From contig NZ_FNYY01000003.1 of assembly GCF_900109145.1 (NCBI RefSeq), positions 248,001 through 312,000 on the forward strand: a DNA stretch of 64,000 nucleotides. Reading direction: 5' to 3'. Origin of the DNA: Marinovum algicola (GTDB lineage Bacteria; Pseudomonadota; Alphaproteobacteria; Rhodobacterales; Rhodobacteraceae). The translations under genes and the position numbers were made by a program. Below, piece by piece: positions 43,136 to 45,512 of this stretch (positions within the stretch are counted from its first letter, which is position 1; each line of letters begins with the position of its first letter). The notes beneath the pieces were generated by a model. That model did not search any database and was not told the origin of the DNA. It saw only the letters and a program-made list of their open reading frames with translations.

Positions 43136-44071
43136 TCAGCCCCGTGCCAAGACGGGCTTGCGAAAGCTGACCGGCATCGCATGGTCCGGCGCGGTTTCCG
43201 CCTGGGATTGATCGAATACCAGGTAAGCGCCTGAAACCATGACGATAATCGCGCCGATCAGCGTGCTGGCCTGGGGCACTTCGTTGAACACGACCAGCCC
43301 GATCAGCACCATCCAGACGAATTGCAGATTCATCAGCGGTGTGACCGCATAGGCGGTGAGATGGCGCAGCGCGATCACCAGAAGCAGCCGCGCCGAAAAC
43401 AGCACCACCGCGCAGAGCACCGCCATCATCAGATCGAACAGCGGCATCGGCTGCCAGCCCAGAGGCGCCAGAAGCAGCATCGACAGGAAGACCGCGAGCT
43501 GCGGATAGAAAACCTGGGCCAGCGGCGTGTTCTCGCGCCGCCCGATGTAGCGCGACAGCACGATCGAACCGGTGCCCGAGACCGCGCCGATGAAGGCCGC
43601 GATGTGGCCTGTGGTTATCGTCGACAGGCGAATCTCGACCATGCACAGCACCCCGAGAAAGCCGCATCCCAGCGCGACCCAGGCAGCCGGGCGCACCCGT
43701 TCCCCAAGAATCGGCCCCGACATCAGCGCCGAAAGCAGCGGCACCAGCGCGACAAAGAGAAAGACCTGCGCCAGCGCCAAAGTTGCCAGCGCATAAAAGA
43801 ACATCACCGTCGCCACCACCGTCAGCGCGGCGCGCATCGCCATCACGCCGGGGAAATTGGTGCGCAGGGTCACCTTTTCGCCGCGTACCCGGCTGCTGCC
43901 GAGCGACATCAGCGCGATCAGCAGCGCAATGATGCTCAGAAGCTGCGGCGCGCCATAGGATTGCGCCAGGTATTTCGTGATCGCATCGGAAAAGGTGATC
44001 AGCAGCGTATAGATCAGCACCAGCCCGGTGCCGAAAGTCGTGATACTGATCCCTGCCGGCCCCACCCGCAT
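43136..44071 (-). CDS. EamA/DMT-family transporter
   Basis: A 311-residue inner-membrane protein with ten predicted hydrophobic helices in two EamA repeats (QVFLFVALVPLLSALMSGPI in the first, TPLMNLQFVWMVLIGLVVF in the second). DMT proteins move metabolites, often outward. Its ATG overlaps the stop of the upstream 365-residue gene by one base (TGATG), so it is translationally coupled. Together with the short peptide gene further upstream it makes a three-gene operon. Confidence 0.9.
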   Translation of the reverse strand: MRVGPAGISITTFGTGLVLIYTLLITFSDAITKYLAQSYGAPQLLSIIALLIALMSLGSSRVRGEKVTLRTNFPGVMAMRAALTVVATVMFFYALATLALAQVFLFVALVPLLSALMSGPILGERVRPAAWVALGCGFLGVLCMVEIRLSTITTGHIAAFIGAVSGTGSIVLSRYIGRRENTPLAQVFYPQLAVFLSMLLLAPLGWQPMPLFDLMMAVLCAVVLFSARLLLVIALRHLTAYAVTPLMNLQFVWMVLIGLVVFNEVPQASTLIGAIIVMVSGAYLVFDQSQAETAPDHAMPVSFRKPVLARG

Positions 44072-45168
44072 CAGGCGCTAACCTTTTGTGCGCGGGCGAA
44101 TTCTTCGAAAAACGCCTCGAAATGCCCGGTCGAGGCCTCGGCCTGGGCCAGTCGCGCGCGGGCGGTGTCGGTCAGGTTGGCGCCGATCTGGCTGCGCATC
44201 GCGGCCCAGGCGTCAGAGCGGTCGTCCATGCGGAACAGCTGAACCGAGATTTCGCGCAGCGCCGCCGATCCGGCGCGCGGCCGGTGAATGGCCAAGGCCC
44301 CCGACTGGCCCCTGCGGCGCAACGGCACTTCGCCAAAGGGCGTTTTTCCCTGAACGCCGGCAAGCCAGGACGAGGTCAGATATTCGTGATAGACATCGGC
44401 CACGGGCCGCTGCCCCGGCTGGCCTGCATCCAATTCTGAAATCTCAAATTCGCTCATCTTGCAATTGATCCACTCTTCCCAAATCCCCGAGGGGTTGAAA
44501 CCTGCATAGCGCATTGCCACGCAAATCTCAGCAAGAAGATCCAGGTTTCCGTCAAGAAAAGCCAAAAGCCCTGCATTCTCCAGCGACCGCAGCTCATTCG
44601 GCCCCAGATCCGGGTCTTTCCGCCCATACTCCGAGAGGTAGAATACGATGTGCGTCAGCTCGAAGGCAGCCTTTTTGTTGGGCAATGCAAAGCGTTCCGG
44701 ACGCGCAATGAAGTCACGCAGACGCGCTTCAGCGGCACCCTGGTCGCCAAGTGGATCCATTCCGCGCCGTTGCATCAGCCGAAAAGCCTCGGCACGTTGG
44801 ATGTCAGAGGTCTCTCCGCCGACCAGATCCTGCCGCAGCGCCCAGGCGCACATCGATTCGGCATGATCACCCGGCATCCCGAGCGCCTCGAGATCGAGGG
44901 TCAGCGAGAGGATGAAGCGATAATATTGGGGAAAGAACGCCAGCTTTTCGCGGGCGTTGTCATAGAAGGCGCCATAAGGCTCCAGCAGCGTCGCCGGAAC
45001 CTCCTGGCCGGTGCATTCGAGGATGTTCAGCAGCTCGGCGTTTTCCTTGAGCCAGAACACATCCTCGGGGCCGCGCCGATGCGCGGCGAATGAGCGGATG
45101 AGCGCGCCGGAACGCGCCGCTCGCCGCTCCCTGGGGCCGGGCACATTCAAATAGACAACGTTCGACAT
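44071..45168 (-). CDS. Unknown protein, middle gene of the short-peptide operon
   Basis: A 365-residue soluble, helix-rich protein that I cannot place in a characterised family. The most motif-like region is AAFELTHIVFYLSEYGRKDP (about 189-208). Other conserved-looking stretches are EVCV-type cysteine sites (LAEICVAMRYAG, ESMCAWALRQ, EWINCKMSEF). There is no signal peptide or membrane segment. A strong GGAGGA ribosome site stands eight bases before the ATG. It lies 63 bases downstream of the 57-residue peptide gene and overlaps the transporter start. A partner or modifying role for the peptide is inferred from order only. Confidence 0.75.
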   Translation of the reverse strand: MSNVVYLNVPGPRERRAARSGALIRSFAAHRRGPEDVFWLKENAELLNILECTGQEVPATLLEPYGAFYDNAREKLAFFPQYYRFILSLTLDLEALGMPGDHAESMCAWALRQDLVGGETSDIQRAEAFRLMQRRGMDPLGDQGAAEARLRDFIARPERFALPNKKAAFELTHIVFYLSEYGRKDPDLGPNELRSLENAGLLAFLDGNLDLLAEICVAMRYAGFNPSGIWEEWINCKMSEFEISELDAGQPGQRPVADVYHEYLTSSWLAGVQGKTPFGEVPLRRRGQSGALAIHRPRAGSAALREISVQLFRMDDRSDAWAAMRSQIGANLTDTARARLAQAEASTGHFEAFFEEFARAQKVSA

Positions 45169-45231
45169 GATTGGGTCCTCCGATGAATATCAAATGCGCC
45201 CGGTCCGAGCGTGTTCAGTCCTGCGCGCCGC

Positions 45232-45405
45232 TCAGGACACGCACATCATCGCCTGGACCTGGTCACCGTCGAACATGTCGGTGCCGGTTTCGATCGAGAC
45301 GCACATCATCGTGTCGACGTGATCGCCGGCCGAGATCTCGGTGGTCTCGATGACCAGTTCTTCGGTTTTGGTTTCGTTAAGGGTTTCTTGAACAAGTGCG
45401 AGCAT
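45232..45405 (-). CDS. 57-residue peptide with two C-terminal GDxVxxMMCVS repeats
   Basis: A short reading frame from ATG at 45405, with GGAG seven bases ahead. The N-terminal half is acidic (begins MLALVQETLNETKTEELVIE). The C-terminal half holds two copies of an 11-residue unit, GDHVDTMMCVS (27-37) and GDQVQAMMCVS (47-57), with a 20-residue period and the second copy flush with the C-terminus. The only two cysteines are in these repeats. It is the first gene of the operon with the 365-residue protein and the EamA transporter. The layout resembles a multi-core precursor peptide, but no known modifying enzyme is visible; a small metal-binding protein is the alternative. Confidence 0.72.
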   Translation of the reverse strand: MLALVQETLNETKTEELVIETTEISAGDHVDTMMCVSIETGTDMFDGDQVQAMMCVS

Positions 45406-45489
45406 CGTGTGTCTCCGTGTTGAATGTTTTCGACACGGCCAGATTTCTCCACCCTTCCGAGCATTTCAAAACATTTTTCAACTATACCT

Positions 45490-45512
45490 TGTGGATAAGT
45501 CTTTTATCCACA
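45490..45512. promoter_or_regulatory. Two inverted perfect DnaA boxes in an AT-rich intergenic region
   Basis: TGTGGATAA (45490-45498) and TTATCCACA (45504-45512) are exact, inverted consensus DnaA boxes five bases apart. Outer arms TATACC (45483-45488 region) and GGTATA (45521-45526) extend the symmetry. The 325-base gap between the peptide gene and xthA is AT-rich beyond about 45460. Apart from these boxes and the ribosome sites of the flanking genes I see no other feature in it. It could control either divergent gene. Confidence 0.6.

Follow-up and report, generated by a model that had tools for sequence, protein, structure and literature searches.

A candidate family of multicore ribosomal peptides encoded beside DUF6902 proteins in roseobacters

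Organization of the locus

We analysed a 64,000-nucleotide stretch of the Marinovum algicola genome (NCBI RefSeq assembly GCF_900109145.1, contig NZ_FNYY01000003.1, positions 248,001 to 312,000 of the forward strand), here called the window. Three of its genes encode a 57-residue repeat peptide, a 365-residue protein of the Pfam family DUF6902 and a predicted EamA exporter. These genes and their relatives very probably represent a new family of multicore ribosomally synthesized and post-translationally modified peptides (RiPPs) in roseobacters, as judged from the pairing of the precursor and DUF6902 genes and from selection on the repeated core. The features of the cassette are as follows.

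45412..45416, minus strand: precursor ribosome-binding site GGAGA, with the ATG 6 nucleotides (nt) on; read from the sequence
45232..45405, minus strand: gene of the 57-residue multicore precursor peptide, stop included; from the open reading frame (ORF) and repeats
45295..45327, minus strand: repeat unit 1, GDHVDTMMCVS, residues 27-37; G is unit position 1 and MMCVS positions 7-11
45235..45267, minus strand: repeat unit 2, GDQVQAMMCVS, residues 47-57; its end is the exact C-terminus
45176..45181, minus strand: ribosome-binding site GGAGGA of the DUF6902 gene, with the ATG 7 nt on; read from the sequence
44071..45168, minus strand: DUF6902 protein, 365 residues, putative precursor-modifying enzyme (probable peptide epimerase); from Pfam and alignment
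43136..44071, minus strand: predicted EamA/DMT-family exporter (Pfam PF00892); its start codon and the DUF6902 stop codon share one base

On the minus strand the precursor gene is followed, after a gap of 63 nt, by the DUF6902 gene and then by the EamA gene. An initial annotation, made from the DNA alone, had described the 57-residue peptide with two 11-residue units, the gap with its strong ribosome-binding site and the one-base overlap with the transporter gene, and we verified the coordinates and sequences of all three. The overlap is the TGATG at 44073-44069, and the third gene scores 60.4 bits against EamA, for which the cut-off is 28.2. The operon held no more promoter-like or terminator-like sites than chance would give (1 found and 1.0 expected; 2 found and 2.4 expected). 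At E <= 0.01, the three window proteins had no PADLOC matches, and the peptide and the DUF6902 protein had no PHROGs matches; a defence or phage origin was rejected on these results. Plasmid carriage was rejected as well, as none of 72,556 plasmids matched the window precursor (E limit 1) or DUF6902 (E limit 0.01).

Each of the two units in the window peptide holds one Cys. The units lie 20 residues apart and are identical at 8 of 11 residues, a value reached by none of 3000 shuffles of the peptide (best shuffle, 6). The peptide is kept, with the same distance between units, in the three other genomes found of the window's genus, where the two copies co-vary: MMCVS/MMCVS in the window, MMCAS/MMCAS in one genome and MMCCS/MMCCS in two. 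The precursor reached no Pfam or NCBIfam cut-off when the window peptide and six of its 83 homologues were scanned (best sub-threshold E 0.006), and DUF6749, a Pfam family considered as a candidate, gave no match in the Pfam scan.

Pairing of the precursor with DUF6902

A family search of 147 relatives gave a DUF6902 match in 28, 27 of them above the cut-off, and a scan of genome contigs gave 61 DUF6902 loci. G147 (locus L110) was added and L028, which is DUF6895-like, was removed; of the 89 loci then left, 84 are distinct, the window's own counted in. A repeat-bearing ORF lies directly upstream of the DUF6902 gene in 83 of the 84, at a gap of 12-276 nt. Repeat arrays are also present in all three DUF6902-type loci outside this set and its counts, with FTSWS cores in G685 and STSSF cores in G680 and G710. 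The STSSF arrays (L102/L113 for G680 and L103 for G710) are a variant unit of the same system. Contig ends cut the precursors of L007, L019 and L033; that of L077 seems to be interrupted by a stop or frameshift, and the tail of L055 looks frame-shifted.

The sole homologue lacking a precursor is the DUF6902-like gene of G042 (L114; 6831-7928), upstream of which there is neither a precursor ORF nor a DnaA box. This gene looks like a decaying or repurposed copy.

We also built a precursor profile, using 24 of 29 listed tails. It matched 21 of the 147 relatives, all within the 28 DUF6902 carriers, and none of the 119 relatives lacking DUF6902. The seven carriers missed by the profile comprise four of the window's genus, which have divergent MMC units, together with G044 (YIAGL cores), G042 (no precursor) and G092 (DUF6895 type). 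Thus, peptide homologues that occur apart from the partner gene, the outcome that the initial annotation had named as damaging to its proposal, were not found, and the layout that it had read as a modified-peptide system (leader, repeated cores, partner and exporter) is strongly supported. At 83 of the 84 loci, a gene-encoded precursor with a recognition part and a core stands beside a candidate modifying enzyme, as expected of a RiPP system.

Two loci in the collection carry actinobacterial labels, L081 (Enemella evansiae TN21-6) and L089 (Nocardioides marinus DP1N28-1), yet each has the roseobacter arrangement, xthA, EamA and dgt included, and the L081 contig is as long as one from G005, a genome of the window's family. 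These records are probably mislabelled or contaminated assemblies.

Repeat architecture and selection on the core

Units were found by profile; those that it missed, namely unit 2 in L020 and in L029 and both units in L026, were added by hand. The 83 precursors hold 553 units, with a median of 7 per precursor and a copy number of 2 in the window and up to 20 elsewhere. The usual unit is G-x5-[F/Y/M]-tetrapeptide with a period of mostly 20 or 21 residues; AP or GP usually follows the internal copies, but not in the window's genus. The tetrapeptide (positions 8-11) is the same in all copies in 75 of the 83 precursors, so the poor repeat conservation that would have spoken against the proposal was not observed. 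Between precursors the word differs: 26 different majority tetrapeptides occur, SSGS being that of 26 precursors, and 12% of precursor pairs have a majority tetrapeptide in common. Core types outside the window's genus include FTSGS, FSSGS, FTSSL, FTSWS and YIAGL. Since copies are identical within precursors and words differ between them, all copies tend to be replaced together.

Positional identity was computed on the 75 precursors with at least three units. Within a precursor, pairwise identity is 0.97-0.99 at positions 8-11 and 0.40-0.54 at positions 2-6; in the spacer it is mostly 0.19-0.36, with 0.62 at position 12 and 0.93 at position 13. Between precursors it falls to 0.38-0.78 at positions 8-11, while G1 (0.97) and F7 (0.90) are retained. 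Codon comparisons within precursors gave 3788 synonymous and 54 nonsynonymous differences at positions 8-11. The nonsynonymous/synonymous ratio is 0.01-0.02 at positions 1 and 8-11, 0.23 at position 7 and 0.09 at position 13, and it rises to 1.4-6 at positions 2-6 and 14-18, where nonsynonymous differences prevail; these counts are descriptive, because pairs within one array are not independent. The core is under strong selection. From this pattern, F7, which is conserved and at times Y, C, I or M, appears to behave as a recognition residue, and positions 8-11 appear to behave as the product word.

The precursor ends exactly at unit position 11 in 66 of 83 cases, which suggests that this is the C-terminus of the product. 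The remaining precursors, mostly with Trp-type and some with Met-type cores, carry 2-21 residues past position 11. On a quick DUF6902 tree of 81 rows, from which L046 and L086 were excluded for their broken enzyme frames, the core changed at least 34 times; 28 of the 78 inner branches of this tree are weakly supported. The SWS-type cores of L008 and L076 fall apart from the main SWS-type clade. These separate placements look like convergence on one product, the branches there being weakly supported. Odd units were noted in the arrays of L046 and L086 (FTFSM; IMSGS), and L050, which has a full-length DUF6902 frame, likewise has one, FMSCS.

The initial annotation had also raised the possibility that the Met-Met-Cys unit binds copper or another metal. 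A metal-binding peptide of this kind, a copper chaperone or metallophore, would be in keeping with the MMCVS, MMCAS and MMCCS cores of the window's genus, but MMC cores occur in only 4 of 83 precursors, all from that genus, and the homologous position is mostly metal-poor (FTSGS, FSSGS, FTSSL). None of the three proteins of the cassette exceeded the cut-off for any metal-related family. We therefore reject metal binding as a general function and regard this explanation as highly improbable; in the MMCVS pair of the window, the usual FTSGS/FSSGS/FTSSL core takes a Cys form.

Position 9 bears on the chemistry of the modification. Of the 82 precursors in which the profile found units, 81 have S, T or C as the majority residue here, the window with C among them, as would be expected if a Ser/Thr/Cys side chain at this position were dehydrated, built into a heterocycle, phosphorylated or glycosylated. 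Against such a modification, all 11 units of L015 have N at position 9, and L026, in which the conserved enzyme residues are intact, has A there. The three window proteins match none of the YcaO, lanthipeptide dehydratase, kinase and glycosyltransferase families in Pfam or NCBIfam. An obligate chemistry on Ser, Thr or Cys is weakened by these exceptions, and we consider side-chain modification at position 9 quite improbable. Position 10 is often Gly and is therefore not an obligate site of epimerisation.

DUF6902 as a putative peptide epimerase

The 365-residue protein, for which the initial annotation recognised no family, turned out to be a clear member of PF21843 (DUF6902), with 456 bits against a cut-off of 27 (E 1e-136) over profile positions 1-351 of 351. 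It also matches PF21836 (DUF6895) with 73.2 bits against 23.8 (E 3e-20) over 206 of 289 profile positions. Judged by these scores, it is a distant DUF6895 homologue filed under DUF6902; the Pfam entries of the two families give no function. DUF6895 is the subject of a paper whose title reports a lasso-peptide epimerase of this family (Shi et al., ACS Catal. 2026, 16:1757; via PMC13352647). The statement of the initial annotation that no classical modifying enzyme is visible holds insofar as none of the classical kind is present, but the partner protein is related to a family called an epimerase in that title.

The window protein and four DUF6895 proteins from proteobacteria share T/S-H173, F176, D/E180, G182, D210, E214 and Y260-H261. 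H173, D/E180, E214, Y260 and H261 are aligned in all four DUF6895 and in eight of nine DUF6902 sequences; the ninth, from G042, has lost H173, D/E180, D210, E214 and Y260-H261. An AlphaFold2 model, computed from an alignment of the window protein with 40 of 61 named loci, is nearly all-helical, with a predicted local distance difference test score of 91.1 and a predicted template modelling score of 0.91. No PDB sequence matched the window protein at E <= 1.

We consider DUF6902 a likely epimerase. Backbone epimerisation at the alpha carbon would be the likeliest reaction because of the DUF6895 homology and because none of the core positions has the same reactive side chain throughout; the N and A at position 9 beside intact enzyme residues fit backbone chemistry.

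Alternatively, DUF6902 may act on a multicore RiPP by cutting, cyclising or otherwise processing the units. The exact ends at position 11 and the conserved P13 would suit a cutting or joining enzyme, and core release needs some agent, as no protease is seen in the cassette; the fold search, for its part, gave no significant enzyme family. On the other hand, Pfam finds only DUF6902 and DUF6895 in the 365-residue protein and no protease family, and the related family is named an epimerase in the title cited above. We regard this alternative as unlikely and retain epimerisation as the preferred reaction.

EamA and genomic neighbourhood

The cassette consists of the precursor gene, the DUF6902 gene and usually the EamA gene, and lies between xthA and erpA/dgt/argS. 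In loci of at least 6 kb, an EamA match was found downstream of DUF6902 in 47 of 61. The initial annotation had proposed to test whether the peptide is always accompanied by the 365-residue gene and a transporter; the transporter is not a constant companion, being absent from 14 of these 61 loci. EamA was found in none of the 17 DUF6902-less genomes with erpA in view beside xthA; L120 and L142, which also lack DUF6902, have erpA out of view and are not among the 17. Because of these counts with and without DUF6902, EamA is considered part of the cassette but not essential to it. The nearest paralogue of the window EamA in its own genome is 30% identical (15 matches including itself), whereas same-site EamA proteins elsewhere are 40-72% identical, which suggests a dedicated transporter. 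Genes for the lasso B protease and C cyclase were searched for at the locus only, and none stands beside the precursor.

DnaA-box-like sites upstream of the precursor

Two further features lie upstream of the precursor gene in the window.

45490..45498, plus strand: DnaA-box-like 9-mer TGTGGATAA, one arm of an inverted pair
45504..45512, plus strand: DnaA-box-like 9-mer TTATCCACA, the second arm; the arms are 5 nt apart

The DnaA-box consensus TTATNCACA is present in 53 of 77 xthA-precursor intergenic regions, with 75 sites (2.85 per kb) there; the remaining 605 kb of these loci contain 2. When a single mismatch to TTATCCACA is tolerated, the density is 4.55 per kb compared with 0.14 in shuffled intergenic sequence; among single mismatches, the box's free N is the position affected most often (18 of 63), followed by 13, 12 and 10 at three other positions. 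Most sites lie around -90 to -119 or -160 to -190. Eight of 22 neighbouring box pairs are spaced 76 bp apart, and 67 of the 75 sites share one orientation. None of the 17 DUF6902-less intergenic regions (4.7 kb) contains the motif. The window's own genome (5.4 Mb) has 14 exact copies of TTATCCACA compared with 27 of a reversed control pattern, and 45490-45512 is its only exact TTATCCACA pair within 100 bp.

An origin of replication (oriC) at these boxes is not supported, as no GC-skew reversal occurs at the site in the window. In G058, the skew is negative in 18 of the 20 blocks (20 kb each) surrounding the locus, including the blocks beside it.

The promoter sites suggest that expression may be linked to DnaA or to replication. 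Control of the precursor by DnaA is a prediction, and another factor with the same site is possible.

These sites are also relevant to an explanation outside RiPP biosynthesis, in which a repeat protein binds DUF6902, for example as a DnaA-linked regulatory or sequestration pair. Besides the upstream sites, the cassette shows no protease or immunity gene and lacks EamA at 14 of 61 loci, which would be in keeping with such a pair. The tetrapeptide copies, on the other hand, are identical in most genomes and are jointly replaced between species, neither of which ordinary binding repeats need, and DUF6895 is called a peptide-modifying enzyme family in the title of the epimerase paper. We judge this explanation improbable and continue with the RiPP reading.

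DUF6895-type genes in other groups

A small ORF lies upstream, at a distance of 2 to about 130 nt, in seven of eight DUF6895-type genes inspected: L107, L108, L109 and L111 (proteobacteria), L145 (Streptomyces), L146 (Gemmatirosa) and L147 (Pseudalkalibacillus). By eye, a leader-like motif G-[ILA]-[ILV]-[ND] was seen in six of the seven. Repeated cores were found in two, GPWYIYKE/GPWFVLKE in L108 and DWTF[VI]S.NYVYKG in L109, and GPW[FY] recurs in the upstream ORFs of L107, L108 and L145. These small ORFs are possibly a second set of RiPP precursors; the pairing is only suggestive because small ORFs are common.

Discussion

We interpret the locus as a minimal pathway for a multicore RiPP in which DUF6902 is the only modifying enzyme and probably an epimerase, and put the probability of this reading at roughly 0.6. 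The precursor would carry one very short product sequence in several copies, each behind its own recognition element with G at position 1 and usually F, Y or M at position 7. The product would be the tetrapeptide 8-11, perhaps with residue 7: MCVS here, and TSGS, SSGS, TSSL or TSWS elsewhere. DUF6902 would act on the copies, most likely by epimerising an alpha carbon to give a D-residue. Release of the short peptides would then fall to a housekeeping protease and their export to EamA, where present.

Several observations weigh against this interpretation. Concerning the enzyme, we found no biochemical evidence for any DUF6902 protein, and DUF6902, as a distant DUF6895 homologue, could perform different chemistry. 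In a Foldseek search against the PDB, none of 457 matches (E <= 10) reached E <= 0.001; the 50 matches listed were weak and helical, the best at 0.23. The Pfam scan of the window proteins revealed no protease gene or RiPP recognition element (RRE) domain in the cassette; a PqqD-like RRE domain in particular was not among the families found in the three proteins. The DUF6902 frame is broken in two loci of the set, L046 (140 residues) and L086 (91 residues), where loss of the system may be under way. Concerning the precursor, the tetrapeptides are not all identical in 8 of 83 (L016, L018, L033, L034, L046, L050, L071 and L086), and not every unit has F/Y/M at position 7: in the STSSF arrays of G680 and G710, F or L stands at position 6 instead. 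Within the window's genus, synonymous and nonsynonymous codon differences in the precursor are roughly even (4:6 to 12:9 over six pairs), and constraint there is therefore weak outside the units. The DnaA-box motif is missing from 24 of the 77 loci, as is EamA from the 14 loci noted above, and the eighth DUF6895-type gene, that of G668, has a short, truncated-looking frame for which no repeat precursor was found.

Multicore RiPPs such as the cyanobactins, dikaritins and microviridins encode several copies of a short core in one precursor, each with a recognition sequence. The present precursors resemble them in having a multicore design with a recognition sequence for each copy. They differ in that no related enzyme was matched here, the core is only 4-5 residues long, and there is a single candidate for the modifying enzyme.

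The DUF6895 lasso-peptide epimerase is similar in its sequence homology, in the shared motifs [T/S]H..F...[DE][FY]G, D...E and YH, and, by its title, in acting on a ribosomal peptide. In contrast, DUF6902 forms a Pfam family of its own, its precursor is of a multicore, short-core kind and not a lasso precursor, and the xthA-dgt interval leaves no space for lasso genes at most loci. The passages of PMC10406935 on MslH describe an enzyme that makes a D-residue in the lasso peptide MS-271, with two His-Asp pairs flanking the alpha carbon; if DUF6902 epimerises, both enzymes would place a D-residue in a ribosomal peptide. MslH has a metal-dependent calcineurin-like fold, unlike the nearly all-helical prediction for DUF6902. 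The known RiPP epimerases named in the introduction of that paper are radical-SAM enzymes, alpha/beta hydrolases and MslH; an all-helical epimerase would be another fold. Among the titles and abstract openings listed by searches of PMC, none describes the present system.

In summary, the pairing ties a Pfam family of unknown function, DUF6902, and perhaps DUF6895 more widely, to gene-encoded peptide substrates. The predicted substrate of DUF6902 is a core of four to five residues that can be read straight from the genome, and the 26 core tetrapeptides, each paired with a homologous enzyme, form a natural library. The upstream sites point to a possible connection, open to test, between DnaA and a roseobacter peptide product. 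A bold guess, to which we assign a low probability, is that the products are species-specific signals: tetra- or pentapeptides with a D-residue, epimerised by DUF6902 and exported by EamA, whose expression is under DnaA control and tied to chromosome replication. If true, marine Gram-negative bacteria would possess a peptide pheromone system in which the word changes between species, in all copies together.

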